DNA of 64,000 bases from Pseudomonadota bacterium (GTDB lineage: Bacteria > Pseudomonadota > Gammaproteobacteria > Steroidobacterales > Steroidobacteraceae), in the NCBI GenBank assembly GCA_021792755.1, contig JAJYUA010000001.1:124001-188000 (forward strand), written 5' to 3'. The notes beneath the pieces are model-generated. The model was not told the origin of the DNA. It did no database searches and saw only the letters and a list, made by a program, of their open reading frames with translations. Each line of letters opens with the position of its first letter. Positions within the stretch are counted from its first letter, which is position 1. Shown piece after piece: positions 2,334 through 28,900 of the stretch. Position numbers and translations under genes: made by a program.

Positions 2334-2375
2334 CTGCGTGATCGGCCGGCGATGATGGCGCACCGCAGGCAAAGA

Positions 2376-11157: not shown

Positions 11158-11214
11158 GATGTCTCTGCCGTGAACACTTGCGAGCCGGGGTTCAGCCCCT
11201 CGCCCACTGGGCGG

Positions 11215-13655: not shown

Positions 13656-13846
13656 CGTTTTTCAATTAAGCAACGTTTCTGACCTGCGCTCCTGAGTCGG
13701 CCCGAGCTGCGGGCGCGCACCGCACGACGGATGAGCTACCCGTTTCGATTCTGGGTCATGAACGCAGCCGCCGGTTCATAGGCCGCCCGCCGCGTCTCGC
13801 CGCCTTCATCGCAGCCCGACAACGGGGGTCTGACTGGAGACGAAGC

Positions 13847-14160: not shown

Positions 14161-14600
14161 GGTCTGACGCCAATCAAACTGCCCGGGCCTTCGTCTCTCG
14201 CGCGTCTCGTGCCTTCGGCATAGCCGAAGCAGACAGAACCGACCCCGGGGCACAGGTGCGCACATCCCCCAAGCATTCAGTCGCACCGGTAGATCTTTGC
14301 CTGGCCTGAACGGCCGGTGAGACTGCGTCGCCGCTGCGCGGCGACGCGCAGGAGCACGACGTAGAAAGTACAAATCGGAAGAAGACGCCGGCGAACCCGG
14401 CAGCCGCGGTCACCTCAAAACCGTGCCCAATCCCCAGAATCAGCCGGTTTCTGGTCACCGCTCACACGACTGCGGAAAAATGTCCGCGGCATGACCCGTG
14501 ACGGCGCGCGCGCACTTTTCCGAGCGCAAACTGTACGCTGGCGCACGGATGGACCGCGTGGATTGCGGCATGCTTCAGCAAATCCCACGAGGCGGTACCC
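14161..14600. other. intergenic region, nothing recognised
   Basis: About 440 bases between the LysR relic and the ferritin-like gene, with only chance frames. Part of it may once have belonged to the LysR gene. Confidence 0.35.
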
Positions 14601-15146
14601 ATGAACAGTCAACCGACGCTGACCGACACCTCGACATTGCGCGAGCGTGCCCGCAAACACATAGACGCCGGCGCGGTAACTTTAGGATATACGGCTGACC
14701 GAGCGGAAGTGGTGCGCCAGCTCAACGCGGCCCTGGCCACGGAACTCGTGTGCGTGCTGCGCTATAGACGCCACCACTTCATGGCCAGGGGCCTCGACGC
14801 GAAGAGCACCGCCGACGAGTTTCTGGTGCATTCGAACGAGGAACAGATCCATGCGGACCAGTTGGCGACGCGCATCGTTCAGCTCGGCGGCGAGCCGGAT
14901 TTCGCGCCCGATAGCCTGAGCGGTCGCAGTCACGCCGAGTATGTTGCTGGAAACTCGCTGCTGGAAATGATCCGCGAAGACCTGATCGCCGAGCGCATCG
15001 GCATTGACAGCTACCGCGAACTGATTCAATACCTCGCCGACAAAGACCCCACCACCAGTCACATGCTGCGCTCGATATTGGCGAAGGAAGAGGAGCATGC
15101 CGAAGAGCTCTCCGACCTCCTGGTGAGCCAGCCGGAACGCCGGTGA
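14601..15146 (+). CDS. ferritin-like (bacterioferritin-type) protein
   Basis: Four-helix ferritin-like protein of 181 residues. Diiron-type ligand motifs are visible: the glutamate in ALATELVCVLRYRRHHF (helix A), EEQIHADQLATRI (helix B, E-x2-H), a glutamate in EMIREDLIAERIGIDSYR (helix C) and LAKEEEHAEELSDLL (helix D, E-x2-H). This fits bacterioferritin-related proteins that store or detoxify iron and peroxide. It overlaps the OsmC gene downstream by four bases (GTGA), so the two are translationally coupled and probably form an oxidative-stress operon. Confidence 0.85.
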   Translation: MNSQPTLTDTSTLRERARKHIDAGAVTLGYTADRAEVVRQLNAALATELVCVLRYRRHHFMARGLDAKSTADEFLVHSNEEQIHADQLATRIVQLGGEPDFAPDSLSGRSHAEYVAGNSLLEMIREDLIAERIGIDSYRELIQYLADKDPTTSHMLRSILAKEEEHAEELSDLLVSQPERR

Positions 15147-15565
15147 AAAAGTCCGCGCGCGTTGTTTGGACGGGTGCTATCAAGAAAGGCGTCGGTTTGA
15201 TCACGACTGACTCCGGCGCGCTCCGTGCCGCACCGTACGGCTTCAACTCACGCTTCGAGGGTGGAAAGGGATCGAACCCCGAGGAGCTGATCGCCGCGGC
15301 GCACGCAAGCTGCTTTTCGATGGCGCTTGCCCTGACGCTGGACGAAGCCGGCCTCACGCCCACGCGCATTACGACCGATGCCGAGATTACACTCGAGAAG
15401 GGCGCTGTCGGCTTCGACATCACCGGCAGTCACTTGATTGTGGTGGCCGACGTGCCCGGCGCCGACCCGGCGCAGTTCGAAGTTCTCGCCCAGAGGACCA
15501 AATCCGGCTGCCCGGTCTCCAAGGTGCTGCGTGCGCCGATCACGATGACAGCTCGACTCGCATGA
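15143..15565 (+). CDS. OsmC-family peroxiredoxin-like protein
   Basis: OsmC-type thiol peroxidase of 140 residues that reduces organic hydroperoxides. The first catalytic cysteine is in ELIAAAHASCFSMALA and the second in RTKSGCPVSKVLRA, the paired cysteines of the family. The GTG start at 15143 overlaps the stop of the upstream ferritin-like gene (GTGA). Pairing of an iron-storage fold with a peroxidase supports a joint role in peroxide defence. Confidence 0.9.
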   Translation: MKKSARVVWTGAIKKGVGLITTDSGALRAAPYGFNSRFEGGKGSNPEELIAAAHASCFSMALALTLDEAGLTPTRITTDAEITLEKGAVGFDITGSHLIVVADVPGADPAQFEVLAQRTKSGCPVSKVLRAPITMTARLA

Positions 15566-15842
15566 CCGAGCACCGCAGCCGCGCGTCCGTCCACGCAGTG
15601 TCTCGTCTTTGCGCCCTCGGCCATCTCTGCACTCAAAAGGGAGGGAATGACGGGCAGTAAAAGGGCGATTTTGGACGGGATCAGGCTGAACAAAGGAATG
15701 GTTTGTCCTCAAGGATAGGCGACGCCTTTGGTATCGGTGTAACGTTCATGCTGCCCGCGGCACGCGGAGGGCGCGCCTCCGAGCTGCCGGGTGACGCCGG
15801 GGATAATGTCTGGCACTGCTTCGGCTGCGGTGCTGCGCGGGC
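15566..15842. other. intergenic stretch with an isolated HCFGCGA zinc-finger-like motif
   Basis: Plus-strand frame around 15781-15837 reads GDAGDNVWHCFGCGAA, which resembles the CHC2 zinc finger of phage-type primases, but nothing else of a primase surrounds it and the frame breaks into the ISL3 relic at 15840. It is probably a fragment or chance; no gene is called. Confidence 0.25.
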
Positions 15843-16000
15843 GTGGTCGACAAGTTCCATGTGATCGCCCATGCCTCGGGTGCGATCGATAAGAGGCGCC
15901 GCATCGATCAGTACTTCGACCTGAGTCCCGAGGGACTGCGCCGCGCGCTGCCGAGGGATCGCAGCAAGCGCACCTGCACGATCGCCGGCATGCGCGACCT
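15843..16000 (+). pseudogene. ISL3-family transposase fragment
   Basis: The plus-strand frame VVDKFHVIAHASGAIDKRRR followed by LRRALPRDRSK matches the catalytic-core segment of ISL3 transposases, where the aspartate in the (V/A)DKFHV motif is the second acidic residue of the DDE triad. Both the N-terminal zinc-binding half and the C-terminal half are missing, and similarity fades at about 16000, before the 3' end of the Crp/Fnr gene on the other strand. An IS relic without visible ends. Confidence 0.55.
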
Positions 16001-16071
16001 CTCTTGCATTGGCCGCTACGGCGCCGTGTACCCCGCTCGTTTTTCAATAGGGCCGGTTTCGCGAGCCGCCG

Positions 16072-16779
16072 TCAGTCTCGCATCAGCCGATCCGTTTCCT
16101 TTTTGACCACGGTATAGCATTCACAGCACAGAGTCTCGAGCCGCGGTCGGTCAAGCACCGTGATATGTCCGCGCTGGTAGTGTATGACGCCGAGCCGCTG
16201 CAGTTTTCCCGCGGCATCCGTGACGCCCTCACGCCGTACGCCGAGCATGTTGGCGATCAATTCCTGGGTCATATTCAACTGATCCGAGGGTAAACGATCG
16301 AGCGACAGTAGTATCCATCGACACAGCTGCTGGTGAACCGTGTGATGCCGATTGCACACCACAGTTTGCGCCATCTGAGTGATGAGGGCTTGTGTGTAAC
16401 GCAGAAACAGTCCTTGCAGTGTGTCGTTGCTGTGAAATTCCTCCTTGAGTCGCGGCCCCGGCAGGCGATACGCATGTCCCGCGCTCTGCACGAGCGCGCG
16501 GTTGGACGTCGTCTCTCCACCCATGAACAGCGGAATGCCAACCAGCCCGTCGTTGCCCACGATGGCAATCTCCGCGGATGAGCCGTCCAGAAGCACATAC
16601 AGAAGCGAGATGATGCAATCGATCGGAAAATACACATGGCGAAGTGCCTCGCCGGACTCATAGAGCACGGTGCCGAGCGGTAGTTCGATGCGCTCCAGAT
16701 GCGGCAGCAGCCGCACCATTGAGTCCGCAGCGAGCGTCCTGAGGAGGTGATTCTCGGTTGGAACGTGGGTTGCACTCAT
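16072..16779 (-). CDS. Crp/Fnr-family transcriptional regulator
   Basis: Regulator of 235 residues with an N-terminal cyclic-nucleotide-binding-like beta barrel (PLGTVLYESGEALRHVYFPIDCIISLL) and a C-terminal winged helix (LNMTQELIANMLGVRREGVTDAAGKLQ). It lacks the Fnr N-terminal cysteine cluster, so oxygen sensing by an Fe-S cluster is unlikely; the signal is unknown. ATG at 16779 overlaps the stop of the upstream PAS gene (TGATG), so the two are coupled. The protein may receive input from that PAS partner. Confidence 0.9.
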   Translation of the reverse strand: MSATHVPTENHLLRTLAADSMVRLLPHLERIELPLGTVLYESGEALRHVYFPIDCIISLLYVLLDGSSAEIAIVGNDGLVGIPLFMGGETTSNRALVQSAGHAYRLPGPRLKEEFHSNDTLQGLFLRYTQALITQMAQTVVCNRHHTVHQQLCRWILLSLDRLPSDQLNMTQELIANMLGVRREGVTDAAGKLQRLGVIHYQRGHITVLDRPRLETLCCECYTVVKKETDRLMRD

Positions 16780-17393
16780 CAAGCAACCGGTGTCTGCTTT
16801 GTCTGGCCGATCCCCATCAATCCGATCAGGAATCCTCCGCCGTCAGGGTCCCGGCACGCCGAAGCGTGCACGCAGCGAGGGTCGCCGTCCGGCGCCGACT
16901 GCAGGCGAAGGTCGGCAAATGCAGTGGCGGCGCCCTCGACAACTCGAGCGAGCATCGTGCGCAGGGTCGGCACAGCCTCCGCCGCGAGGAAACTCTCCAG
17001 CGACTGGCCGCGCAACGAGTCAGGCTCCGAGCCAAGCAGGGTCGCACCCGTCCGGTTCAGTTCGAGAAGCATCGCGTTGCCGTCCACCACGAAATGACCC
17101 ACCGGGGCATAGTCGTAGAGTTGAATCCGACGGTTGAGCGCGTTCTCGAGCTCAACGCGCGAGCGCCGCAGCTCCTCCTCCTGCAGGTCCACTTCCACCT
17201 GGTGGACCTGTAGCTCATGGAGCAACGCGAGCGCTTTGGGAGCGGTAGTCGGCGAGGAAGCGAACTCGTAGAGCACGCGCAGCGCGGCCAATGGGTCGGC
17301 GCATGCCTGGGCGTCGGGTCCCTTCAAGCGAGCGACTGCGCGCGAACGCAGGCTATCCGTTCGGCTGCGCTTGCGAGCAACTGTCGTCATCAT
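16779..17393 (-). CDS. PAS-domain protein
   Basis: Cytoplasmic sensor-like protein of about 204 residues. Residues about 50-80 (LALLHELQVHQVEVDLQEEELRRSR) form a coiled-coil-type helix, followed by a PAS domain (YDYAPVGHFVVDGNAMLLELN, then LLGSEPDSLRGQSLESFL). There is no kinase, GGDEF or EAL output domain. It ends one base into the start of the Crp/Fnr gene, and the pair probably forms a sensor/regulator operon. Two adjacent ATGs (17393, 17390) can start it. Confidence 0.8.
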   Translation of the reverse strand: MMTTVARKRSRTDSLRSRAVARLKGPDAQACADPLAALRVLYEFASSPTTAPKALALLHELQVHQVEVDLQEEELRRSRVELENALNRRIQLYDYAPVGHFVVDGNAMLLELNRTGATLLGSEPDSLRGQSLESFLAAEAVPTLRTMLARVVEGAATAFADLRLQSAPDGDPRCVHASACRDPDGGGFLIGLMGIGQTKQTPVA

Positions 17394-18150
17394 GCCACCT
17401 CGCTGATCGTGCGGTACCGGCACCCTTGGTTGTGGCGACAGTCTACCTTTTTATTCGCAGGCTTTTGAAGCGGTCGCGCCGAGACGGGCAATAGCTTCGG
17501 CGGCGATCGCCCACGGGCCGCGTGTGACGCTCTCGCGGTGACTGCACCGGAGCATCACCCGCGCCGGCGATCGGCATCGCATCCTCCCCCCACGTCCCCG
17601 GTCGACTTCCGGGGCGATCCGATCTTCTCCTGCAAGGCAGGCAGTTCGCCACGTTCCTCTACGAGCTCGTGCGCGCCCGGATGGAGCGATTCGGGGGCGG
17701 AAAGGACGCGAGTTCCCGGTCGCCTGCGTCAGGGCACTCGTCGTAGTTCTGGCAGCTGGGTACGGCAGGGCTGGTTTGCCCTGCTTTGGGGTTCCCGTTG
17801 CGGCGGGGAGTGGAACTCGCGCCTGGCTCCACTCCGCCAGGCGCTCTGGAAGCGCACCTCGGTCCGGCACGAGCGGACCAGCTACGGGGCCGAAGGACTC
17901 AGTCGCACCGTCACACTCATCAAGCGCCACACCGGCGGATAACGCAATCCCGAGTCGTCCCTGACATGATCCGTCTCCCGGTCGGCGACTTCGATATCCC
18001 TGCGCAGGCTGCGGGCACTTTACGAACACTCCGCTGGCGCACGAGACAGCAACTCACCTCTTATCCCTGAAGGTACGGTTGAAATGGAGGCACCCGACGG
18101 CACGTGGCGCCATCTCGAGCGCGAGCGTCTGGAGGCGGCGATGGGGGTCG
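17394..18150. other. gene-poor stretch, nothing recognised
   Basis: About 750 bases between the PAS gene and the end of the CheB-CheR gene. Frames on both strands are long but compositionally odd and unrecognised, for example a plus-strand segment DLLLQGRQFATFLYELVRAR around 17620-17680. It may be decayed DNA. No histidine kinase is found here. Confidence 0.35.
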
Positions 18151-20721
18151 TCAACGCGGCGCCTCTTGGCGATTGCGCAATCTGGCCTCCAGCTGTTTGG
18201 CTACGGTGATATCGACGAAGGTGATCACGGCCCCCTGGATGACGTTGGCTACCGTGCGGTACGGCATGATGCGCACCTTGAACCACCGCGCATCACTGGT
18301 CGAGATCTCCTTTTCGCTATACGCGAGGGTGCGCAACGTTTCTTTGGCGTCGGCGTCGAGTTCGGGATAGTTCAACGTCGTAGTGAGGTCGCTCAGCGGG
18401 CGGCCGATGTCCGCCTCCCGTAGATTGATGAGGCGCTTGATCTGCTCAGTGAAGCGGCGTACGTTCAAGTCGTTGTCGAGGAACAGCGTGGCGATGTCGG
18501 TGCTGTTGAGCAAATTCTGCATGTCACTCTGCGCGAGCGCAAGGTCGTCGAGCTTGGATTGAAGTTCGGCGTTGATCGTCTGCAATTCCTCGTTCATCGA
18601 CTGGGCCTCTTCCTTGGAAGTCGTGAGTTCCTCGTTTGCGGACTGCAGCTCCTCGTTCGTCGATTGCAGCTCCTCGATGGCCACCTGCCGCTCCTCGTCC
18701 GAGGCGCGCATGGTTTCGCGCAAGGCCTTGAGTTCTTCCTGGCAGCGGGTGAGCTCGGCGGCGATCGCAGGATCGACCGCACCCACGTCTTTCTTGCGCC
18801 GAGACTTTTTGGCGATCGGAGCGGCAACCTCCCGAAATACGACCATCACCATGCCGCCGAGTGGGTTGGGCTCGTCGATCGGTTCGACGGTGATGTCGAG
18901 CTGGTGGGTGAAATTATCGTCCATGCGAAGGCCCCGGATCTCGACCACTGTGCGCTCTTTGATGGCCCGCCACAGGGCCGCGGCGAGCGGAGTCCGTATG
19001 GCGGGACGGGCCATGACATGGATGTTCCAGTTGGCCTTGCCGGCCGCCGGCTCGAGATACCGGCCGGTATGCGCGCTGACATAGAGAATGTCGCCAAGTT
19101 CGTTCACCAGAACGGCCGGAGGGGAAAATTTCTGCAACAGAAATTGGTCGGCCAGCGCCTGGACGTTCGCCGTCTGGGAAATTTGCGGTGACAAAGGTAA
19201 CTCCTGCGCGGGCGCGCGCGCTGAGACACGGCGACCAGTAGGAAAATCGACGGTGCGGGGCATGGTCGCCGCCTGGCTGCGGCGGTAAAGACGGGATTTC
19301 GACGACACAGTCGGAAATAGATTCTGCACCGGTCCCACGGTTTCCGATCCGCCCAGCATCAGAATTCCGCCTGGAAGCAGGCTGTAGTGGAACAGCGGCA
19401 GAAGGCGCTTTTGCAACGCCGCGTTGAAGTAAATCAAGACATTGCGACACAGCAGCAAATCGAGTCGCGTGAACGGCGGATCCATGATCAGATCGTGCTG
19501 GGCGAACAGCACCCGTTCGCGGATTCGTGGGTCGATGAGGTAGCCGTCACCCTGCGTGCGAAAAAAGCGGTCCAGACGCTGTGCGGAGACATCTGCGGTT
19601 ATGGAGCCGGGGTAGCGTCCTCGGCGGGCGGAGGCTATCGCGTCGGCATTGAGATCCGTGGCGAAGATCTGTAACGTTGATGTGCCCGTCAAGGCCAGTC
19701 GCTCGCGTGCTTCCGTGAAGACCATCGCGAGGGAGAATGCCTCCTCGCCGGTGGAGCAGCCGGCGACCCAAGCACGGTACTGCTTGTCGGGGCCTTCGCG
19801 CGCGAACAGTTCCGGCAGCGCAACGGAGCTTAATTCGTCCCAGGCCGCTGGATTGCGAAAAAAACTCGTGACCCCGATCAGCATTTCCTTGAAGAGCAGA
19901 TCGAGTTCCGTGGGGTTTGCGAGCAAGAGGGCGGCGTATGCGTCGATGGTCGTGACGCGATGTATGGCCATGCGCCGCTCGATGCGGCGCCGCAGCGTGC
20001 TTGGCTTATACAGCGTCAGGTCATGCTTGCTGCGCGCACGCAGCAACGCCAGCACCGAGTCCAAGTCGGCGGTCGCGTCGCCATTGTTTTGCCCGGAAGC
20101 GAGAGCATGCGTTTGCGGGCAAATGACCTGAAGAATACGCTGCGGCATCTCGGAAGGGAGTGCCACGACATCGGCCACGCCAGCCGTGACTGCGCTCTTC
20201 GGCATCGAATCAAACTGTGCCGAATGCGGCTCTTGCGCGAGCGTCAAGCCGCCTTGGCTCTTGATCGCCTGCAGACCGAGCGTCCCGTCCGACCCCATGC
20301 CTGACAGGACGACCCCGATGGCTCGGGCTCCCTGATCCCCAGCGAGGGAGCAAAGCAGCACGTCGATGGGCAGGCGCATCCCGCGCGGCTCGCTCGGCTT
20401 CGCGGGACGCAGGAATCCGCCCTTCACGGACAGCTCGGTGTCTGGGGGGATCACGTACACGACATCGCGTTTCACCCGCATGGACGCCGTCACCTCGCGC
20501 ACGGGCATGGACGTCGTCCGTTGAAGCAGGTCGGGCAACATCGCTTTGTGCGTCGGATCCATATGCTGCACGACAACATAGGCGACGCCGCTCGGCACCG
20601 GCACATGACTCAGGAACTCTTGCAGTGGCTGCAGGCCACCCGCGGAGGCGCCCAGTCCCACGATGTGCGTCGGGGCTCTGTCCTCTTCCGGGGAGTCGCT
20701 CGTGGGTGTCAGCGGGGTCAT
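18151..20721 (-). CDS. CheB-CheR fusion protein with C-terminal PAS domain
   Basis: Chemotaxis-type fusion of 856 residues. Residues about 18-200 are a CheB methylesterase: catalytic serine in GLGASAGG, histidine in VVQHMDPTH, aspartate in LSGMGSDGT. Residues about 225-490 are a CheR methyltransferase: SAM motif AGCSTGEEAFSLAM and LLLCRNVLIYF. A long coiled coil follows (repeated EELQSTNEELQSANEEL-type heptads, about 650-725), then a PAS domain to the end. Many relatives carry a histidine kinase after the PAS; here the protein stops. No mcp or che gene lies nearby, so it is an orphan that may modify an unusual receptor or signal through PAS. Confidence 0.92.
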   Translation of the reverse strand: MTPLTPTSDSPEEDRAPTHIVGLGASAGGLQPLQEFLSHVPVPSGVAYVVVQHMDPTHKAMLPDLLQRTTSMPVREVTASMRVKRDVVYVIPPDTELSVKGGFLRPAKPSEPRGMRLPIDVLLCSLAGDQGARAIGVVLSGMGSDGTLGLQAIKSQGGLTLAQEPHSAQFDSMPKSAVTAGVADVVALPSEMPQRILQVICPQTHALASGQNNGDATADLDSVLALLRARSKHDLTLYKPSTLRRRIERRMAIHRVTTIDAYAALLLANPTELDLLFKEMLIGVTSFFRNPAAWDELSSVALPELFAREGPDKQYRAWVAGCSTGEEAFSLAMVFTEARERLALTGTSTLQIFATDLNADAIASARRGRYPGSITADVSAQRLDRFFRTQGDGYLIDPRIRERVLFAQHDLIMDPPFTRLDLLLCRNVLIYFNAALQKRLLPLFHYSLLPGGILMLGGSETVGPVQNLFPTVSSKSRLYRRSQAATMPRTVDFPTGRRVSARAPAQELPLSPQISQTANVQALADQFLLQKFSPPAVLVNELGDILYVSAHTGRYLEPAAGKANWNIHVMARPAIRTPLAAALWRAIKERTVVEIRGLRMDDNFTHQLDITVEPIDEPNPLGGMVMVVFREVAAPIAKKSRRKKDVGAVDPAIAAELTRCQEELKALRETMRASDEERQVAIEELQSTNEELQSANEELTTSKEEAQSMNEELQTINAELQSKLDDLALAQSDMQNLLNSTDIATLFLDNDLNVRRFTEQIKRLINLREADIGRPLSDLTTTLNYPELDADAKETLRTLAYSEKEISTSDARWFKVRIMPYRTVANVIQGAVITFVDITVAKQLEARLRNRQEAPR

Positions 20722-21313
20722 GGGTTTCCTGGAGACATTGTCCGGCGAAACGAGTGTCAGTGCGCCCGAGAATACTGGTCCCCGGAAGGTTTGGGCAAAT
20801 TCATTCTCGGCCGCACCGCCGAGGAGACCGGTCTGTTGGAGCGGGGCGCGGGTGGCTCGAAGCGGGCGGGAGCGGGACGAGTTTTAGGCTTGAACGGTCG
20901 GGATCGATTCCTGCGGATGAGTTTTGTGGAGCAGGGAGGGGCGCTCCCGGGCGGGTGCAGCTGCTCCGGAGCGTGCTGTACCGAGGATGAGGGAAAGGCA
21001 AGAACTGCCCTCTACTTTATTCGCCGGCACATGCGGGGCAAGGGCGGCGGACAGTCCGTACCGAGGCAAGCTGCTGACCCATGGGCGCGAGCGCTACCAC
21101 ATCGGCACGGCAACGTTAACGCTCGAGTACTTCGGCTGTCGGCAGCACCGCCGCACATGCTGCCGCGAGGCGCTGAAGGCCACGCAGCTGCCGTGCGGGC
21201 GCGCGCGCCCCGCCGTGGCAATGCAGGAGTATCTAGAGCGGATGTTCAAGCAATCTCTTACGCCGCCGTCACTGCACAACGTTGGGACAGTAGTGTGCGC
21301 AATTATGTAATGA
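20722..21313. other. intergenic region, nothing firm
   Basis: About 590 bases. A plus frame near 21040-21309 (RGKLLTHGRERYHIGTATLT, later AVAMQEYLERMFKQ) has protein-like stretches but no identifiable family or start, and may be a decayed gene. It ends at the ATGA that precedes the structured element. Confidence 0.3.
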
Positions 21314-21522
21314 ACAGGCCAGCCGCTGAAGCGGGTGGTTTCGAAGACGCGCATCAAGGCGTGCCGTCGGCCGCAAGGGCCGACGGGTACTCTGACTTGA
21401 GGCTTGCGCCTCCAGACACCCTGATCAGCGGCAGCGTACGCTGGATAGGGGACTTGCACCCCCAAGCTGTCGAACATGCTCGGCACACGTAACCATCCCC
21501 CGGCAAAGCCGGGGGCTTTCAA
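21314..21522 (+). ncRNA. structured RNA candidate, omega-RNA/HEARO-like IS200/IS605-type remnant
   Basis: In about 210 bases there are seven hairpins. Arms CCAGCCGC/GCGGGTGG at 21319-21338 (one mismatch) close a TGAA loop. CCGTCGGCC at 21364 pairs with GGCCGACGG at 21378. GAGGC/GCCTC at 21399-21412 is flanked by TCTG/CAGA. CAGC/GCTG is at 21432-21443, GGGG/CCCC at 21448-21462, and CCCCCGGC/GCCGGGGG at 21497-21515 with an AAA loop. A weaker ACGC/GCGT pair is at 21347-21362. The block is preceded by ATGA (21310) and the last hairpin is followed by TCAA (21519). Those features fit an IS200/IS605-superfamily element whose RNA remains without iscB or tnpB. Class assignment is from memory of HEARO features; strand is likely but not certain. 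Confidence 0.4.
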
Positions 21523-21547
21523 ATGTGAGCCGCTCAAAGCCGCTATC

Positions 21548-21597
21548 CGGGGTCGCTAACGCGGCCCCGACCCGATCGGGCCACCAATAGGTGGCCC
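21548..21597. repeat. two strong adjacent hairpins
   Basis: Directly after the structured element lie two further inverted repeats: CGGGGTCGC/GCGGCCCCG at 21548-21569 (one G-T wobble, TAAC loop) and GGGCCACC/GGTGGCCC at 21578-21597 (AATA loop). Neither is followed by a T-run, so they are not ordinary intrinsic terminators. They may belong to the same mobile remnant. Confidence 0.5.
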
Positions 21598-21888
21598 ATC
21601 ACCTCAACAGGTTCATCTGCTCCAGTCGTTCGTCTTCGCGCTCCTTGTTACGTCCTCTAGTATCTGAGGCGCAACGCCTTCCGTTTTCCCGCGCTCGTCC
21701 GGCACTCTTGAACGAGCATGTCCGGTTGCAGTTCGAGACGATCCAGCCGAGGGCTGGGGTTCGCTGCCGTGGAGATCGTGGGACAGGGTGGGCAGCGCTG
21801 GCCGAGGACGGTCGGTTCGGTGGTCTTGCCAGGTTCCGGGCCGCATCCGCTCTCTGGGTGTCACGGATGAGATAAAGTACGCGGCCTC
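21598..21888. other. intergenic region, nothing recognised
   Basis: About 290 bases between the hairpins and the SEC-C frame. Frames on either strand have no recognisable motif. Confidence 0.35.
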
Positions 21889-22060
21889 ATGAGTACCCAG
21901 ACCGTTGGCCGAAACGCCCCTTGCCCCTGCGGCAGCGGGCTGCCGTACAAGCGATGCTGCCGGGAAAAAGACCGAGCCGAGCAGTCCGCGCGGGATCGGG
22001 CTCGGTCCATCGCGGAGCGAGAGCGGCAGGAGGCAGCACGGCAAGCTGCGAGCGCGCCCA
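21889..22060 (+). pseudogene. SEC-C motif protein, truncated at a junction
   Basis: N-terminal fragment starting [17 protein letters not shown] with the full SEC-C zinc-binding motif [13 protein letters not shown], followed by a charged helix ([20 protein letters not shown]). The frame continues to 22128, but beyond about 22055 it is simply antisense to the ParB-like gene (its FLQDLGAL segment), so the original C-terminus has been replaced. SEC-C motifs occur at the end of SecA and in small proteins of unknown function. Confidence 0.6.
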
Positions 22061-22787
22061 GATCCTGCAGAAAGCGTTGTGTAGCCGAGGGCGGCGCCGG
22101 GGTCCGCGCCGCCTGCGCCTGCAGATAGATCTGCGGGCTATGCAGGATCAGCTCACGCGTGCGTTGTGTGCCGGATTGCCAGCCGCCATACAGCGCCCCC
22201 ACTTCCCGCGTCGTCGGCTTCAGCGCTGTGAGAGCCCCCGCCAGCTGCTGCACGGCAGCTGCGTTGGCGCGCGCCAACGGCACCAAATACTTCATGGCCG
22301 CGTGGGCGCTCACGGTGCCCACGCGCACCTGCTCCTGGATGGTTGCCGGCAGGACCTGCAACAGTGCTAATCGCCGGCTGACCCAGCTTTTGCTGTGTTC
22401 AAAACGCCGCGCGAGTTCGTCCATCGAGCAGTGAAATCGTTCCTGTAACTCCGCCATCAACCAGGCTTGGTCCAGTGCATCCTCGGTCCCCCGGCGCAGG
22501 CCTCGCTCCAATAAAAGCGCCTCGACCTCCGCGACCTGCCAACACGTGGCCCGCACCGTATCGCGCGCCAGACGCTTCAGCGCTCGCACGCGCTTGTAGC
22601 CGTCGATCAGTACAAACCGCTCGGTTTCGCTCACCACCACAATCGGCAACAGCTGCTCGCTCTCCGACAGCGAGCTCAGCAGCGCCCGCTCTTGCCGGGG
22701 GTGGCGCTTGCGCAAATGCTCGTAGCGCAGCGTCAGTTGATGCAGCTCCACCTGCAGAGCCCCTCGTGGATCGGATATCCCGGCCAT
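22055..22787 (-). CDS. ParB-like nuclease-fold/HTH protein, probably 3'-truncated
   Basis: DNA-binding protein with a ParB/sulfiredoxin-type N-terminus ([20 protein letters not shown] with the GYKR motif, residues about 45-65) and a helix-turn-helix ([21 protein letters not shown], about 125-145). From ATG 22787 about 244 residues are family-like, ending at RFLQDLGAL; the frame then runs on to 21861 but as antisense of the SEC-C frame, so the native C-terminus appears lost near 22055. It lies 55 bases downstream of the zinc-ribbon gene on the same strand. It is not the chromosomal ParB (that is at 38944). Likely part of a mobile element, role unknown. Confidence 0.65.
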
Positions 22788-22832
22788 GCATCCCACGATA
22801 CGAGCGCTGCCCCGCAACGCCTATCGAGTACT

Positions 22833-22993
22833 CTCTTTGCAATCATCCCCTCGGCGGCAAGTCCCTTGATATCGCAGTGATTTTCACCGTCCACGCGTTC
22901 CTCTTTGCAATCGGCTCTTCCGCCACAGGCGTGAGCACGTAAGTGCCGGAAAACTCAGGGCCGATCGCCTCCGACGCGTTCCTCTTTGCAATC
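22833..22993. repeat. direct DNA repeats containing CTCTTTGCAATC
   Basis: An identical 20-bp sequence, ACGCGTTCCTCTTTGCAATC, occurs at 22893-22912 and 22974-22993, and its 12-bp core CTCTTTGCAATC recurs at 22833-22844. On the minus strand the repeats encode IAKRNA twice inside the zinc-ribbon protein, and the third lies at its stop codon, just ahead of the ParB-like gene. They could be binding sites for the ParB-like protein, which is inference. Confidence 0.6.
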
Positions 22994-23295
22994 ACGCCTG
23001 AACCCTCCCGGGCACCTCGACGCGCATTGCGCACCCGCTGCTGCTGGCGGTTGCGTTCACTGTATCGGGGATGTTGGCGTCGGTACTCGCGCCAGTACTC
23101 GCGGTGGCGCTCGCTCCAGGCGCGCTGCGCACGGGCCTGGTTCTCGCGGTAATCCGCATCCGTCTGGCGCTTGCCGCGCTTCCACCGCCGCCGGCGTTCA
23201 TGCTGGCAGTCCGGCTGACCACAGAATCGCTGCTCGGGAATTTGCGGGCGCGGCCGAAAACTCGCCCCGCAGGCTGCACACCGCCGGCACTGCAT
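22843..23295 (-). CDS. zinc-ribbon, arginine-rich protein next to ParB-like gene
   Basis: Protein of 150 residues. The N-terminus has a C4 zinc-ribbon (CRRCAACGASFRPRP ... RFCGQPDCQ) followed by a very basic helix (HERRRRWKRGKRQTDADYRE and RRQHPRYSERNRQQQRVR), typical of nucleic-acid binding. The C-terminus contains the peptide IAKRNA twice, at about residues 106 and 136. Start ATG 23295 has a run of six G five bases upstream. It is the gene closest to the Tn7-like right end of element 1, transcribed away from it, and precedes the ParB-like gene. Function unknown; the pair recurs in mobile DNA to my recollection. Confidence 0.7.
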   Translation of the reverse strand: MQCRRCAACGASFRPRPQIPEQRFCGQPDCQHERRRRWKRGKRQTDADYRENQARAQRAWSERHREYWREYRRQHPRYSERNRQQQRVRNARRGAREGSGVIAKRNASEAIGPEFSGTYVLTPVAEEPIAKRNAWTVKITAISRDLPPRG

Positions 23296-23740
23296 GGCTA
23301 CCCCCCGGGACGGACCCGTCACGCCATGGCGCCGTTCGTGCGCTCAAAGTCGGTAGAAGATCAATACCTCTTGGGCGGCTCCGACCCGGCCATCCGCGCG
23401 ACCGTACCGGCGCAGCAGTGCCGCTGACTGAGCAGGAACTTCTGCTCCTGCTTGCCCCCGACCTTCTCTCGCCATCACCGGCCTTTCCCCACGCCCCAGT
23501 CTGATGGCGACGGAAGAAGCTCCCCTAGCCGCCGACTACCGGTCCAACTCGCGTAACCAACCAGACACTTTCATCGCCCCTGTAACACGACGGGCCAGGG
23601 GGGGGACTGCTTCTCGCAAGCACGACAGGGCTGATTTTGGAAAGCGCCTCAGGTGACTGAAAACAGTCGCACACTCAAATTCAGCAGTCATGGATTCGAG
23701 AGGGAGTAGGCGGCGCAGCGAATCGGCCCCGCTGATGCCT
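23296..23740. other. non-coding leader next to the right end of element 1
   Basis: About 440 bases between the zinc-ribbon gene and the 20-bp repeats. No recognisable gene. It probably contains the promoter for the zinc-ribbon/ParB-like pair, but I cannot pick one out convincingly. Confidence 0.4.
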
Positions 23741-23760
23741 TGATTATGTCGAATTACCAG

Positions 23761-23846
23761 GAAACGACTTTGTTTCGTGGGTAACGACTTTAATTCCCAG
23801 GAAAGGACTTTAATTTCCGGGTAATGACTTTAATTCGGTCGCACAA
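23761..23846 (+). repeat. Tn7-like right end of element 1: four 20-bp TnsB-type sites
   Basis: Four direct repeats start at 23761, 23781, 23801 and 23821 with exactly 20-bp phasing; the consensus is G-W-A-A-Y-GACTTTAATTC, with GACTT invariant at positions 6-10. A degenerate fifth copy precedes at 23741 (its second half, AATTACCAG, matches). The last repeat is followed by GCACAA, so read inward the end begins TTGTGC. Tn7 right ends likewise contain four close-packed TnsB sites, and the outermost site aligns without gaps with both ends of element 2. Confidence 0.75.
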
Positions 23847-23851
23847 CAAAT
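23847..23851. repeat. candidate left 5-bp target duplication of element 2
   Basis: CAAAT lies between the end of element 1 and the TGTGG that opens element 2. The corresponding five bases after element 2 (27044-27048) are AAAAT, four of five identical, as expected for a slightly decayed Tn7-type 5-bp duplication. Confidence 0.45.
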
Positions 23852-24002
23852 TGTGGGCCCTAATTAAAGTCGTTTCCCGAGCGCGGTTGGTGCCCGAGAA
23901 ATTTCGCTTTTTCAGCCTACCGCCAAGACCAAAGTCGTTACTCTTTATTACGCCGAGCTCGTTTAGGTGCAGGAAACCGTCATGGATCCGGGAACATAGT
24001 CG
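23852..24002. repeat. Tn7-like left end of element 2: three sites spaced 65 bp
   Basis: Inverted copies of the site (AAAGTCG orientation) occur with AAGTCG at 23867 and 23932 and a weaker TAGTCG at 23997, each exactly 65 bases apart, about six helical turns. Tn7 left ends also carry three spaced TnsB sites over about 150 bases. The outermost is preceded by the terminal TGTGGGCCC. Confidence 0.65.
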
Positions 24003-24050
24003 CTCCGCCATTATGTAGCGAACGATTACCGCTGTTCCTTGGATCCACCC

Positions 24051-24401
24051 TCAGCGCCAGCAATTCAGCACGTGAAAAACGCCGGTAATCGTCACGCCGG
24101 AGGTTTCGAGGCGGCGGATAGCCGCCGCGATCTGTGCGTGGTTCATGTTCTTGCGCGGATCGGCGTCCCGGTGGACCGCCATGATGCCACGATGATCTGG
24201 CCGTTCACTGTGCAAGTGGTGAAAATCTTCCGTGTTGTGAGTCAGTAGCACCCGCGCGAGCGACTGCGCGAGGTCGAGTACTTCCGGATCGGGTGTTCCG
24301 TTCTTGCCAAGCTCGCCGATGGCTACTACATCGTGTCCGTCGGCACGTAGGATATTGAGCTGTGCGCGAGCCTGCGAGTCTTCATCGACCAGGATTCTCA
24401 A
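24051..24401 (-). CDS. PIN-like toxin (DUF5615 family)
   Basis: Putative RNase toxin of 116 residues. MRILVDEDSQARAQLNILRADGHDV and VLLTHNTEDFHHLH show the acidic residues of the Mut7-C/PIN-like DUF5615 fold, the toxin partner in VapBC45-like modules. It starts with TTG at 24401, overlapping the TGA stop of the upstream antitoxin gene (TTGA), so expression is coupled. It is the first gene inside the left end of element 2 and probably stabilises the element. Confidence 0.8.
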   Translation of the reverse strand: MRILVDEDSQARAQLNILRADGHDVVAIGELGKNGTPDPEVLDLAQSLARVLLTHNTEDFHHLHSERPDHRGIMAVHRDADPRKNMNHAQIAAAIRRLETSGVTITGVFHVLNCWR

Positions 24402-24910
24402 GCGGGCGCCCTAGCCTCGACATCGACGTTCGCTCGTTTCAAGCGCTGCCGTTCTTCGTTGGCTTCAGATTCGATCAGCGCTTTATTGGCCTCGCAATAA
24501 GCGAAGATCTCCTCACAGGCTTCCAAAGGCAGATCCCAATTTGTCGCGGCCTCGCGCGGGGCCATGGCGTTCGTCAGTGCGTCAAGCCACACGGCCGATG
24601 CCAGCAGCTTACGTCCCTTGACCCAGAGCTGCCGGCGCCAGGGATGAGGACGCTCGACGAGCCAGCGCCATTGTCCATGCGCTCGGGCCTCGAGCTCCGG
24701 GATTGCCACGCGCACGGCGGTGGAAGGGCTCTTGCCGACGAAGAGCCGATTGCCCTGCTTGACCTCGTCCAAGAGCAAAGTCGTCAGTTGCGCCGCTCTT
24801 AATACCGCCTCTTTGGTGCTGGAAGCAGCCAGCTGGGCGCGCAAATTGGCCAGCAACTCTTCCTGCTCCGGAGACAGGTCAAAGTTCGCGCGCTTTGTGG
24901 TAGCAGTCAT
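24398..24910 (-). CDS. DUF433-type antitoxin with N-terminal dimerisation/DNA-binding region
   Basis: Protein of 170 residues, partner of the DUF5615 toxin. The N-terminal part (FDLSPEQEELLANLRAQLAAS ... EAVLRAAQLTTLLLDEVKQG) looks like a ribbon-helix-helix-type DNA-binding region. The C-terminal part (HPWRRQLWVKGRKLLASAVW, ATNWDLPLEACEEIFAYCE) is DUF433-like. Start at ATG 24910 (MTATTKRANF). A 23-bp perfect palindrome containing the promoter lies just upstream, consistent with autoregulation. Downstream toxin overlaps by four bases. Confidence 0.8.
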   Translation of the reverse strand: MTATTKRANFDLSPEQEELLANLRAQLAASSTKEAVLRAAQLTTLLLDEVKQGNRLFVGKSPSTAVRVAIPELEARAHGQWRWLVERPHPWRRQLWVKGRKLLASAVWLDALTNAMAPREAATNWDLPLEACEEIFAYCEANKALIESEANEERQRLKRANVDVEARAPA

Positions 24911-24931
24911 AGACGACGCCGGTTCTGTTCC

Positions 24932-24969
24932 ATATGAGTATATTATACTCATATTTCGAGCAATGACAA
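24932..24969 (-). promoter_or_regulatory. promoter and palindromic operator of the toxin-antitoxin operon
   Basis: On the minus strand a -35 box TTGTCA (24964-24969) is 16 bases from a perfect -10 box TATAAT (24942-24947). The -10 lies inside a perfect 23-bp palindrome, 24932-24954, centred on 24943 with 11-bp arms starting ATATGAGTATA. Binding of the antitoxin there would block RNA polymerase directly. The antitoxin ATG is 22 bases further downstream. Confidence 0.75.
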
Positions 24970-25182
24970 GCACGTACGGGGACGACCGCCAGTGCTTTCG
25001 TTCCTGCGCTGGACCAGAGTCGCTTGGGGGCAGTACCTACGCAGCGCAGCTATTGGCCAGCGGTCCGCTCGACGCCGCCCCCCCCGGCTCCGTCTTCTAC
25101 GAAGGAAGGCGAGCCCGGCTCTGGATCCAGGCACTCGCCGCGCTGATTGCCGCCTTCGCAGCCGCCCCCGTCCCCGGCTCAG

Positions 25183-25746
25183 TCAGACCGGGTTCTCCGG
25201 CTGCCGCGGCACGCGAGCCTGAAGACCGTCCCAGGCTATCTGGCAGACCAACTCGGTCAGTGCCTGCCGCTCCACGTACGGATGCGCGCGCCACCAGAGT
25301 GCCAAGCCGTGCAGCGCTGATTTGATGCACTCCGCCGCAGCAATTCGCGTCCAGCCCTGCGCCACCGGCCAGATCGTTTCCAAGAAAGCCGCGATCCCAG
25401 CGGAAGCTCGGTTCTGAACCGCGCGCCAGACGTGCTCGGCCGCTGCATCTTCGTGTGGCTCATGCAGCAACACCCGGATCGCGCAAGGCTGCTCCTGAGC
25501 GAAACTGAAGAACGCGTCGACTGCGGCACGGAACCGCTCCTCAGGGCCGCGGAGCTCTGAGGAGATGGCGGCGCCGCGCGACAGCAGCTCGCCGCGTATC
25601 GATCCGAGAACCGCCTGATAGAGTGCGAGCTTGGATGCAAAGTGGTCATAGAGGACCGGTTTTGTCACACCCGCCGTTCGCGCGATCACACCGACCGAGG
25701 CGCCGCCAGAGGCGGCGCAATACCCAGGGGCTTCTGGTTCTCTCAA
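25183..25746 (-). CDS. TetR-family regulator lacking the start of its HTH domain
   Basis: The frame has SVGVIARTAGVTKPVLYDHFASKLALY, the recognition helix region of a TetR protein, followed by a normal ligand-binding domain to 25183 (about 187 residues). Helix 1 of the DNA-binding domain is missing: the frame opens with REPEAPGYCAASGG. The only start is TTG at 25746, which overlaps the TGA of the upstream tetR gene (TTGA). Either the 5' end was lost when the two genes were brought together, or it is made as a truncated protein by coupling. DNA binding is doubtful. Confidence 0.6.
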   Translation of the reverse strand: MREPEAPGYCAASGGASVGVIARTAGVTKPVLYDHFASKLALYQAVLGSIRGELLSRGAAISSELRGPEERFRAAVDAFFSFAQEQPCAIRVLLHEPHEDAAAEHVWRAVQNRASAGIAAFLETIWPVAQGWTRIAAAECIKSALHGLALWWRAHPYVERQALTELVCQIAWDGLQARVPRQPENPV

Positions 25747-26351
25747 GCGACCGTGCTCTTGCGCGCGCGCCCTGCATCTGCCCGAGGGGCGATCGCCTGG
25801 AACGTCGACCGGATCAGCTCATCGACGAGCGGCGGGGGCGCTTCCCGCCGTTTGAGATGAGGCTTCACCGCCGCCAGCGGCACCTCCAACAGCACGAACG
25901 CCGCGCGCCGCATCTGTCCCGAACCGGTCGCGCCAAAGGCCAGGCGCGCAAAGCGAGTCAGCGCATCCTTCACACGCTCGGCCTGCTCACGGACGCCTTT
26001 GCGCAAGGCGCTGGGCCAGTCCCCGGCGACGAAATCTTCCCGGCTGTAAAGGAGCAGAAGGCAGGCGTCATCCAGGTGTTCACGCGCCCAGGCTGGAGTG
26101 TGCAGGGCGGCGCCGAGGCCGTCATCGGCATCGATGGCGGCCATGAAACCTTCCTGATAGGCGACGGCCGATTGCAGCCACAACTCACCGAGAAGTGCGT
26201 CGCGGGATGCAAAGCGATAATAGAAGGAACCCTTCGGCGCCTTGAGCCGCTGCGTCACCGAGTCGACGGTGACCATCGCCGGGCCCCGCTCGATCACAAG
26301 CTGGCGGGCAGCAGCGAGAAACTGGGCGTTGTCGAAAGCGGAGCGTGCCAT
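25743..26351 (-). CDS. TetR-family transcriptional regulator
   Basis: Complete TetR regulator of 202 residues: HTH at residues about 10-55 (AARQLVIERGPAMVTVDSVT then LKAPKGSFYYRFASRDALL) and an alpha-helical ligand-binding domain. It is divergent from the flavin-oxidase-like gene, with a palindromic operator between them, so it probably represses that gene and itself. It runs straight into the truncated tetR gene downstream. Confidence 0.88.
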   Translation of the reverse strand: MARSAFDNAQFLAAARQLVIERGPAMVTVDSVTQRLKAPKGSFYYRFASRDALLGELWLQSAVAYQEGFMAAIDADDGLGAALHTPAWAREHLDDACLLLLYSREDFVAGDWPSALRKGVREQAERVKDALTRFARLAFGATGSGQMRRAAFVLLEVPLAAVKPHLKRREAPPPLVDELIRSTFQAIAPRADAGRARKSTVA

Positions 26352-26357
26352 GATATG

Positions 26358-26378
26358 TAGACTAACAGGTCTAGACCT
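26358..26378. promoter_or_regulatory. TetR operator candidate
   Basis: Between the divergent tetR and oxidase-like genes lie overlapping inverted repeats: TAGAC (26358-26362) with GTCTA (26369-26373), and the perfect 12-bp palindrome AGGTCTAGACCT (26367-26378). Dyads of TAGAC/GTCTA spacing are typical TetR-family operators. A TATAAG box follows at about 26394 and could serve the plus-strand gene. Confidence 0.6.
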
Positions 26379-26429
26379 AGCGGGCTATATCTGCTATAAG
26401 AGCAGCTCACTCGGGCACTGGATACGTGG

Positions 26430-26936
26430 ATGATGCGGGCAGACGGCGAGAAGGCGCTGGAGGTGGGTCGGCTTCTGGCCGGTGCGGCCCAGGTGGTGGC
26501 TGACGTGCATTATTGCTGGCTCATCGTTCCATCCGGTGAGGGGATGCCGTCGGCGCGTCCGATGGGGCGTCTGATAGGAGAGCTTGGAAACGCCGACTGG
26601 GTGATCCGTTTCGTGGTGGACGCTGGGTCGCGCAAGGTTGCAGCTTTGCGCCGCACGGGCATCCTCGCCCTGACATTCCAGAAAGGGGCGGACGACGCCT
26701 TCGTGCTGCTCGCCGGCAATGCCACGCTCCTGAGCGAGCCTGCCGATGTCCGCAGGCATTGGCGGAGCCGGTTCAGCGCCTATTTTCCGACCGCGGAGGA
26801 TCAGGCGAGGGCAGCATTCATCGAAATGCGGGTTGCGCGCATGGAGCTCTGGATCCGCGGCGTCACGCCGGAGCCTTTTGGCACGCGTCCGACGACTCTC
26901 GAACGCGGCGCCGATGGCGCCTGGCGGTTGCCGTGA
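26430..26936 (+). CDS. pyridoxamine 5'-phosphate oxidase-like (FMN-binding split-barrel) protein
   Basis: Protein of 168 residues of the general-stress-protein-26 / PNPOx-like type. Visible strands include YCWLIVPSGEGMPSARPMG, WVIRFVVDAGSRKVAALRR, LALTFQKGADDAFVLLAGNA and WRSRFSAYFP, then MRVARMELWIRGV, in family order. It likely binds FMN or F420-like cofactors; the substrate is unknown. Two in-frame ATGs (26430, 26433). Divergent from tetR, suggesting induction by a toxic ligand. It is the gene closest to the right end of element 2. Confidence 0.8.
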   Translation: MMRADGEKALEVGRLLAGAAQVVADVHYCWLIVPSGEGMPSARPMGRLIGELGNADWVIRFVVDAGSRKVAALRRTGILALTFQKGADDAFVLLAGNATLLSEPADVRRHWRSRFSAYFPTAEDQARAAFIEMRVARMELWIRGVTPEPFGTRPTTLERGADGAWRLP

Positions 26937-26998
26937 GTTGCACGTAGTGCAGGCACCCGGCTAGCTATAGCTATGCCGTGACCAGAGTAATTGCTCAG

Positions 26999-27043
26999 GA
27001 AACGACTTTATTCCCGAGGATACGACTTTAATTACATGCCACA
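26999..27043 (+). repeat. Tn7-like right end of element 2: two 20-bp sites plus CCACA terminus
   Basis: Two direct repeats, starting at 26999 (GAAACGACTTTATTCCCGAG) and 27019 (GATACGACTTTAATTACATG), are in exact 20-bp phase and are followed by CCACA at 27039-27043. Further inward copies, if any, are degenerate. The end faces glmS, as the right end does in Tn7. Confidence 0.7.
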
Positions 27044-27106
27044 AAAATGTCCGTCTCTACCGGCGCGTCATTCCACCGTGACGCTCTTCGCGAGGTTCCT
27101 CGGCTG
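27044..27106. other. attTn7: insertion point and glmS 3' recognition region
   Basis: Candidate target duplication AAAAT (27044-27048) is followed by 19 bases and then the glmS stop codon (27068-27070). In Tn7 the protein TnsD/TniQ binds the last codons of glmS and directs insertion about 25 bases past the stop. Both tandem ends here sit at that distance: 24 bases for element 2, and about 25 for element 1 if element 2 is removed. Confidence 0.75.
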
Positions 27107-28900
27107 ATCGACGTCCGTGCCCTTGAGCACGGCGACGTGGTAGGCGAGCAGCTGCAGCGGTACCGTGTAGATGGCGGGTGCCTGGAACCAGGTCACGTGC
27201 TTCGGCATCTCGATCACGGTGACGCCGTCGCTCGCCCGGATCCCCGACTCCGGGTCGGCGAACACGACGAGTTCCCCGCCGCGGGCACGGACCTCCATGA
27301 GGTTGGATTTGAGCTTCTCCAGCAGATCGTTGTTCGGCGCCACCGCGATCACCGGCATGTCGACATCCACCAACGCCAGCGGCCCGTGCTTGAGCTCGCC
27401 CGCGGGATAGCTCTCGGCGTGGATGTAGGAGATTTCCTTGAGCTTCAGCGCGCCTTCCATGGCGATGGGATACAGCGCTCCGCGGCCGAGGAACAGCGCA
27501 TGGCGCTTGTCGGCGAAACGCTCTGCGAGCCGGTGGATGACGGGGTCGAGGGTGAGCGCCTTTTCGATGAGGCCCGGCAGTTCCACGAGGCGCGTCACCA
27601 GGCCATGCTCGCGCTCGGCGTCGGCGCCGTGGTGGCGGGCGAGCGCGACGGTCAGCATGGACAGCGCGGCGAGCTGGGTCGTGAACGCCTTGGTCGAGGC
27701 TACGCCGATCTCGGGGCCGGCGCGGGTCAGCATGACCAGCTCCGACTCGCGCACCAGCGAGCTTTCCGGCGCGTTGCAGATGGCAAGCGCGGACAGATAG
27801 CCCGATTGCCTGGCGAGGCGCAGCGCCGCGAGCGTGTCCGCGGTCTCGCCCGACTGGGAGATGGTGACGAACAGCGAGTTGGGCGGCACCAGCGGGTTGC
27901 GGTAGCGATATTCGCTGGCGATGTCGACGGCGCAGGGTATACGGCAGATCTGCTCGATGAAGTAGCGGGCCACGCAGGCCGCGTGGAAGCTGGTCCCGCA
28001 CGCCACGATGTGCACTCCGGCGACCCGCTTGAACACGTCGGTCGCGGCCGGGCCGAAAGCGGCCTCGAAGAGCCTGCCGTTGGCCACGCGCTCGGCCAGG
28101 GTGTCGGCGAGGGCCCGCGGCTGCTCGTGGATCTCCTTCAGCATGAAATGGCGGAACGGCCCCTTCTCGGCGCCATCGGCGCTGAGCTCGCTCTCGCGCA
28201 CCGGCCGATCGGCGATGTTGCCGTCGCGGTCGATGACGCGCACCGCCTTGCGGCGGATTTCCGCGACATCGCCCTCCTCGAGGAACTGGAATCGCCGCGT
28301 CACCGGCAGCAGCGCCGCGACGTCGGAGGCGACGAAGTTCTCTTCCAGCCCCAGGCCGATCACGACCGGACAGCCCTCGCGCGCCGCCACCAGGCGCTCG
28401 GGGTCCCGCTCGCTCACCACCGCCAGCGCGTAGGCCCCTTCGAGCTCCGCCACGGTGGCGCGCACGGCCTTGAACAGATCGCCCAGCGTGTCGAGGTGGT
28501 AATGGATGCGGTGCGCGACGACCTCGGTGTCGGTCTCGGACTCAAAGCGGTAGCCGCGGCGCTTCAGGTCCTCGCGCAGATCCTCGTGGTTCTCGATGAT
28601 GCCGTTGTGGACGATGGCGAGGCCCCCGAGAGAGACATGGGGGTGGGCATTACGCTCGCTGGGCACCCCGTGGGTCGCCCAACGGGTGTGGGCGATGCCG
28701 ACGTGGCCCGCCACCGGGGTGCTCTCGAGCGCCTCCTCGAGCACCCTGACCTTGCCGACGGTGCGCAGGCGGGCGAGCCTGCCGGACTCGATCACCGCGA
28801 GGCCTGCCGAGTCGTAGCCGCGGTACTCCAGCCGGCGCAGGCCTTCCATCAGGATGGGGACGATGTTCCGCTCGGCGATCGCTCCGACGATTCCGCACAT
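27068..28900 (-). CDS. glmS: glutamine-fructose-6-phosphate aminotransferase
   Basis: First enzyme of hexosamine synthesis, making glucosamine 6-phosphate from fructose 6-phosphate and glutamine. 610 residues, full length. The N-terminal glutaminase domain starts with the nucleophile cysteine MCGIVGA and contains [16 protein letters not shown]; two SIS sugar-isomerase domains follow ([43 protein letters not shown]). The C-terminus [13 protein letters not shown] is the conserved Tn7 attachment sequence. It lies downstream of the atp operon and glmU on the same strand, separated by the CHAD gene. Confidence 0.98.

Follow-up and report, generated by a model that had tools for sequence, protein, structure and literature searches.

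We analyzed a 64,000-nt stretch of the genome of a Steroidobacteraceae bacterium (contig JAJYUA010000001.1; hereafter the window), in which two Tn7-like elements lie in tandem directly downstream of glmS. The glmS gene (27068–28900, minus strand), recognized by its open reading frame (ORF) and Pfam match, contains at its 3′ end the presumed recognition site of a TnsD-type protein (attTn7). A search of the whole window with the site GGAAACGACTTTAATT, allowing up to three mismatches, returned seven matches, all of them downstream of glmS within 23760–27033, where 0.01 would be expected by chance and none of 100 shuffled sequences reached seven. Four of them follow each other on the plus strand with a 20-bp period (23760, 23780, 23800 and 23820) and form the right end of the outer element, element 1; the minus-strand match at 23862 belongs to the left end and the two plus-strand matches at 26998 and 27018 to the right end of the inner one, element 2. 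Both elements possess TGT...ACA termini and are oriented with their right end toward glmS. Two tandem Tn7-like elements at this position had been proposed in a first-pass annotation of the same DNA, and both the number of sites and the insertion borders described below bear this proposal out.

Element 2 (23852–27043) is a complete Tn7-like cargo element of 3192 bp with TGTGG/CCACA termini, exactly as annotated, and is delimited by its termini, its flanks, a copy in another species (genome G134) and an empty site in a relative (genome G079). A gap of 24 bp separates its right terminus from the glmS stop codon, which likewise agrees with the annotation. The two ends are laid out asymmetrically. 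The left end (23852–24007, plus strand) harbors TnsB-like sites at 23862–23877 and, 65 bp further inside, at 23927–23942, plus a degenerate third one discerned by eye at about 23992–24007, and the right end (26998–27043, minus strand) harbors only two recognizable sites instead of four, at 26998–27013 and 27018–27033, before the terminus at 27043. Read on the glmS strand, the element is flanked by ATTTG on the left (23847–23851) and ATTTT on the right (27044–27048), two copies of a target duplication that agree in four of five bases.

Comparison with a relative lacking the insertion, which the first-pass annotation had recommended, was possible with G079, whose GlmS protein is 96% identical to that of the genome under study (G000). 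In G079 an element-1-type right end lies directly behind glmS and element 2 is exactly absent; the annotated DNA was not collinear in relatives. When element 2 and one copy of the duplication are removed from the window, the remaining sequence is collinear with G079 across glmS, the spacer and the four right-end sites. Since this excision restores the G079 arrangement, element 2 is best read as a later, precise insertion relative to G079.

The copy of element 2 in G134 is of almost the same length (3193 bp) and 99.0% identical to that in the window (3163 of 3194 alignment columns), whereas the adjacent glmS 3′ ends are only 82.4% identical (497 of 603), and the identity between both genomes falls to background exactly at the left terminus of the element. 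The G134 copy is flanked by a perfect 5-bp duplication, ATTAA/ATTAA. Among 217 genomes of the family, 26 show some match to element 2 and only G000 and G134 contain it as a whole. Because length and identity are retained while flanks and duplications differ, element 2 appears to have moved in its present form and, judged from these sequence comparisons, has inserted in at least two species without any recognized transposition gene of its own. Near-identical copies in two species within different flanks and different duplications are also the pattern that recent movement without an own transposase would leave.

It could be argued that element 2 was passed between these species together with the locus, through homologous recombination or transformation, and not by transposition. 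The window copy in fact has an outer right end that resembles that of another element, in genome G308, in 30 of 32 bp and its own G134 copy in 23 of 32 bp, which indicates that recombination has also acted. Transfer of the locus is, however, difficult to reconcile with flanks that are not shared, being 82% identical in glmS and at background past the left terminus at the exact base, and with a perfect duplication in G134 that differs from the one in the window. We therefore consider this explanation highly improbable. The closer resemblance of the outer right end to the G308 element than to the G134 copy suggests that end modules are exchanged between elements.

In a survey of 58 genomes of the genus, 51 glmS 3′-end loci could be read, 50 of them (from 47 genomes, with three loci of G291 and two of G320 counted separately) with at least 60 bp of downstream sequence. 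In 20 of these 50 loci and 17 of the 47 genomes, the start of a right-end-type site lies 33–36 bp behind the glmS stop, compared with 4 of 4029 random windows, and a TGT stands 22–25 bp after the stop (the nearer one being taken if there were two) in 19 of the 20 site-bearing loci, with none in G211. At least two sites about 20 bp apart are present in 16 of the 20, a single site in three, and left-end-like spacing in one, contig C323 of G291. At a score of at least 15, the 51 loci contain 68 sites and their reversed copies none; the underlying weight matrix was made by eye, mostly from the same loci, and slightly altered later, which renders these in-sample scores optimistic. In a search of 296 genomes of the order with a pattern derived from the window and independent of the matrix, 11 genomes, among them the own one, gave a match, and the reversed pattern gave none.

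Being arranged as inverted repeats immediately behind glmS, the sites might instead constitute a regulatory or terminator array of this gene, an alternative already named in the first-pass annotation. Yet the right-end-type site is unseen in 30 of the 50 loci, sites also occur at the distant borders of the insertions, 3.2 kb and 19 kb off, and perfect target duplications flank the ends in G134 and in a further genome, G324. The precise borders refute a regulatory array, to which we assign practically no likelihood, and the repeats are read here as transposon ends. Some other features were seen at the surveyed loci. On contig C323 of G291 (L173), the left-end-like spacing beside the glmS 3′ end lies within the first 200 bases and perhaps reflects an insertion in reverse orientation; G291 possesses three different glmS-downstream contigs. 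Contig C93 of G146 (L071) harbors a second, divergent glmS-like gene (124497–126313 of the contig), which is 44–51% identical and follows the first at a distance of about 14 kb downstream. Another kind of repeat, GACAAATAGTC, is found beside attTn7 in G316 (L060) and G134 (L062, beyond 3821) and by eye looks like the ends of another Tn7-like family.

For element 1, the first-pass annotation had recognized a right end only. This right end (23760–23845, minus strand) with its four TnsB-like sites at 20-bp spacing stands, but it is not all that is left of the element. A left-end finder that combines a site with an outward TGT and a further site 60–69 bp inside returned five matches when run on the 51 glmS-oriented loci, and none when these were reversed. 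One of the five is new and lies at window position 7801, so that element 1 would measure 16,045 bp between its ends (7801–23845). This left end (7801–7891, plus strand) comprises TGTGGGCATG and two sites 65 bp apart, at 7811–7826 and 7876–7891, whose scores of 11.3 and 9.1 mark it as degenerate. Counted outward from the 7801 terminus, the backbone shared with G079 begins to match at the fourth base, and a backbone gene (139–1128) that starts to match 2.4–2.9 kb past glmS in G110, G235, G304 and G325 does so 26 kb past it here. Part of the element body (14467–21251) is shared at 90–92% identity with contig C27 of G134; the copy there stops at a left end of its own, which in turn abuts another right end. 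Element 1 is probably an older cargo element of the same kind as element 2, with blurred borders. Its flanks, TTTGT and AACAG, do not match as a duplication, and because of this mismatch the element may perhaps be a fusion of older elements. In addition, the 1.1 kb just inside the left end (7924–9022) are also present in G079 at 86% identity, which makes the left border of element 1 less secure than the borders of element 2, and the left-end finder recognized no left end in G079. At 22833–22993 of the window, CTCTTTGCAATC occurs three times, twice inside CGCGTTCCTCTTTGCAATC, adjoining a ParB-like gene (21861–22817).

The own genome was searched for transposition genes, as had been proposed. 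Across its assembly of 57 contigs (96% completeness) no match was obtained for TniQ, TnsA, TnsD or Mu-transpos_C (Pfam) or for Tn7 TnsB, where TnsC was not searched separately and the Mu-transpos_C negative is weak, this model (PF09299) missing even the TnsB of Tn7 itself. The same searches elsewhere returned TniQ in 15 of 58 genus genomes, relatives of Tn7 TnsB in 10 of 58 and TnsA in 2 of 11 (one above the cut-off); the TnsD model matched in plasmid R721 and in none of the 58 genus genomes or 14 control genomes. Two further elements of the genus have both ends on one contig, namely a 12,552-bp element in G324 with a perfect duplication, ATTGC/ATTGC, and a 6330-bp element in G247. Of their 13 ORFs of at least 150 aa, the 10 scanned against Pfam revealed no Tns protein, and matched amino-acid permeases, a hydrolase, RmuC, an insertion-sequence-type transposase together with a HipA part and a STAND NTPase, or nothing. 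Searches for TniQ, TnsD and Tn7 TnsB were empty in G324 and G247, as was that for TnsA in G247. Many glmS contigs end inside the insertion, so that the absence of tns genes is not shown for those elements; element 2 in its two species and the elements of G324 and G247, with both ends on one contig, provide the stronger evidence.

Elements without tns genes may also be the remains of autonomous ones, which arrived as full Tn7-like transposons, lost these genes and are now immobile. The missing target duplication and degenerate left end of element 1 would suit such a decay, as would the several right ends of the genus in which only one or two sites are recognizable. For element 2, decay is already contradicted, its length being the same and its sequence 99% identical in two species that differ by 18% at the glmS 3′ end, and the 12.5-kb element of G324 combines a perfect duplication with no recognized tns gene. 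We regard decay as an unlikely explanation overall. In our view the elements are, with good likelihood, non-autonomous Tn7-family cargo elements that are mobilized in trans and stacked at attTn7. Element 2 in particular is, as far as can be read from its sequence, a natural, non-autonomous Tn7-family element, for which mobilization in trans is the simplest account.

The following course of events can be envisaged. Element 1 would have been inserted first at attTn7, and element 2 would then have entered between glmS and element 1, immediately beside the right end of the latter. Both would be cargo-only elements that have kept TnsB-type ends, with no tnsA, tnsB, tniQ or tnsD recognized. A TnsABC machine with a glmS-targeting TnsD/TniQ protein, encoded on an element unseen in the assembly, would act in trans as the putative helper: it would bind the glmS 3′ end, pair both transposon ends via their predicted TnsB sites and insert the element about 25 bp downstream, generating a 5-bp duplication. 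A matching helper would be expected between ends with sites of the type AATTAAAGTCGTTWCC.

Several observations weigh against this interpretation. Apart from the less secure left border of element 1, the weak Mu-transpos_C negative and the optimistic site scores, the duplication flanking element 2 is imperfect in the window, the flanking 5-mers of the G247 element match in three of five bases only, and the two copies of element 2 disagree at the outer right end. No helper with matching ends was found in the DNA searched, although one could be unassembled in a genome of 57 contigs and 96% completeness. Moreover, none of 19 places encoding TniQ in the genus falls on one of the contigs listed for glmS in the same genome, with no near-full glmS among those listed for G301 and G312. 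Finally, Tn7-like gene clusters of the genus were considered as helpers and rejected: the stretches scanned around them contain no site scoring at least 12, and none of the clusters could be tied to the ends described here.

These clusters are of three kinds. TnsA, TnsB and TnsC together with a TniQ of about 800 aa are encoded in G066 (L079, contig C24, 2911–9774; Pfam) and, by DNA similarity, in G114 (L131) and G146 (L133); the same cluster runs into the contig end in G309 (L132). In G066 and G114 it lies beside a divergent gene whose product, by eye, resembles a LexA-type repressor. The second kind, a TniB/TniQ cluster that includes a Mu-type transposase, is present in G134 (L117, contig C83; Pfam), on another contig than element 2, and by similarity on contig C5 of G066 (L118) and in L121 and L123–L125; it is conserved with its neighboring genes in several species of the genus and, as for the first kind, no ends were found for it. 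The third kind comprises a 916-aa protein reading like a TnsA–TnsB fusion, a TnsC-like ATPase and TniQ (L120, contig C75 of G271, 1152–6301; L122, contig C65 of G193) and lies about 0.5 kb from an apparent tRNA gene, as judged by eye.

The cargo of element 2 consists of five ORFs. A DUF5615 (PIN-like) protein identified by Pfam is encoded at 24051–24401 (minus strand), and the ORF upstream of and overlapping its gene (24398–24973, minus strand), which is without Pfam match, is as its partner a possible antitoxin. They are followed by a TetR-type protein (25183–25746, minus strand), in whose match to the TetR_N model the first 16 positions are missing, a TetR-family regulator (25743–26351, minus strand; Pfam) and a pyridoxamine-5′-phosphate oxidase-like protein (26430–26936, plus strand; Pfam). 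A PADLOC search of the five proteins gave no match, comparison of the element 2 DNA with 72,556 plasmid records gave none either, and viral contigs contained no exact match to one right-end pattern. Without the rest of element 2, the DUF5615 gene and its partner also occur, at 81–83% identity, in the family genomes G247 (L183), G372 (L184) and G376 (L185).

Ends of this type are also present outside the genus. A stringent right-end pattern, searched in one genome each of 84,980 species, was found in seven stretches, six of which adjoin glmS: four in genus members, one in another gammaproteobacterial metagenome-assembled genome and one in the complete genome of Ktedonobacteria bacterium brp13. 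The latter harbors an element of about 3.4 kb that has a right end and, at intervals of 58 and 55 bp, three left-end sites; the 5-mers flanking the element match by eye in three of five bases. Its largest ORF (416 aa), the sole one scanned, matches an ADP-ribosyltransferase family, and a search for TnsD in brp13 was empty, with TniQ, TnsA and TnsB not searched there. At a distance of 1.3 kb further, two facing ends form a perfect 24-bp inverted repeat with a 5-bp gap (L211, 5011–5063). If such elements live as satellites, a possibility taken up below, the same layout in a Ktedonobacteria genome would suggest that this lifestyle is not confined to one lineage.

The close stacking of the two elements bears on target immunity. 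Between the right terminus of element 1 (23845) and the left terminus of element 2 (23852) there are 6 bp, which would fit a 5-bp duplication plus one base, and element 2 thus sits 6 bp from a four-site right end, whereas insertion reduced up to 190 kb from Tn7 ends is cited in a published study (PMC12452197). Stacking is not limited to the window: one contig of G308 has two right ends, and on contig C27 of G134 a left end abuts a right end that apparently lacks its outermost part. The window and G308 are the two arrays in which a single contig contains two right ends, and in each of them the end nearer to glmS reads TAATTAAAGTCGT.TCC (TAATT type) and the distal end GAAT.AAAGTC.TTACC (GAAT type). 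Either two TnsB specificities or weak immunity could underlie this arrangement. If the two end types were served by two TnsB proteins, immunity would be intact and the neighbor simply not seen, so that stacking would be allowed. The difference between proximal and distal ends in both arrays favors this possibility; there are, however, only two such arrays, the AAAGTC core is common to both end types, end modules seem exchangeable and TnsB binding is predicted. We deem two TnsB proteins a real possibility, against which we lean slightly. More tentatively still, attTn7 of this genus might serve as a landing strip for cargo-only satellite Tn7 elements, on which elements stack, end modules are exchanged, a helper is present transiently and immunity is bypassed by divergence of the ends. 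In any case, stacked elements with closely related ends offer a natural case for testing target immunity.

Elements of this kind also matter for how Tn7-like transposons are counted. A large survey of these transposons made tnsB a minimal requirement of its discovery pipeline (PMC8649781) and for this reason would overlook any element that lacks tns genes. Should tns-free elements be common, Tn7 machinery moves a larger gene pool than is currently estimated. Among the titles and abstract starts listed in literature searches, most subscription journals being outside their reach, there was no description of natural non-autonomous or stacked Tn7-like elements.

Tn7 itself inserts just downstream of glmS with its right end proximal, as do the elements described here. 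We read the reference ends of Tn7 by eye from plasmid R721 (NC_002525), where four adjoining right-end sites are spaced by 20–21 bp and the left-end sites by 64 and 56 bp; the corresponding spacings in the window are 20 bp and 65 bp. The TGT...ACA termini and the AAAGTC core are common to both. The 5-bp duplication of Tn7 has a perfect counterpart in the G134 copy of element 2 and in the G324 element, one of four matching bases in element 2 of the window, one of three in the G247 element and none in element 1; four adjoining right-end sites recur in element 1, and dispersed left-end sites in both elements. The first-pass annotation had likened the left terminus of element 2 to Tn7, which holds for the AAAGTC core; the Tn7 20-mer quoted for this purpose, however, lies on the tnsA side in R721 and is the Tn7 right end, the left end reading TGTGGGCGGACAAAATAGTT. 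Differences to Tn7 are the flanks of the core, which are GTTTCC or GTTACC here, the stacking of elements at one attTn7 and the fact that tnsA, tnsB, tnsD and tniQ are not recognized. An autonomous Tn7-like transposon has four contiguous right and three dispersed left TnsB sites and encodes TnsB, TnsC and TniQ/TnsD; element 1 has four right and two degenerate left sites, and element 2 two right, two clear left and one degenerate left site. As for a CRISPR-associated transposon, no cas family was among the Pfam matches of the scanned ORFs, and no dedicated cas search was made.

A Tn7-like element in the glmS region is also found in another gammaproteobacterium, Acidithiobacillus ferrooxidans, in the form of the Tn5468-type transposon at glmUS. 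That element is reported to contain tnsABCD-orf5 (PMC2621215), unlike the elements here, and it is likened to them by location. Prokaryotic miniature inverted-repeat transposable elements (MITEs) are described as non-autonomous elements of 50–500 bp that are mobilized in trans by the transposase of another element (PMC10969869). The elements at glmS would share with them the dependence on a foreign transposase, but are 3–16 kb long, carry several genes and occupy one target site; with 3192 bp and five ORFs, as opposed to 50–500 bp with little or no coding capacity, element 2 is ruled out as a MITE. A parallel in design is an engineered mini-transposon, which was reported to be re-mobilized by a plasmid carrying the TnsABC-QCascade genes (PMC12452197). 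There as here, cargo lies between transposon ends and the machinery is, or in our case would be, supplied in trans; there the arrangement was engineered, and here it is natural.

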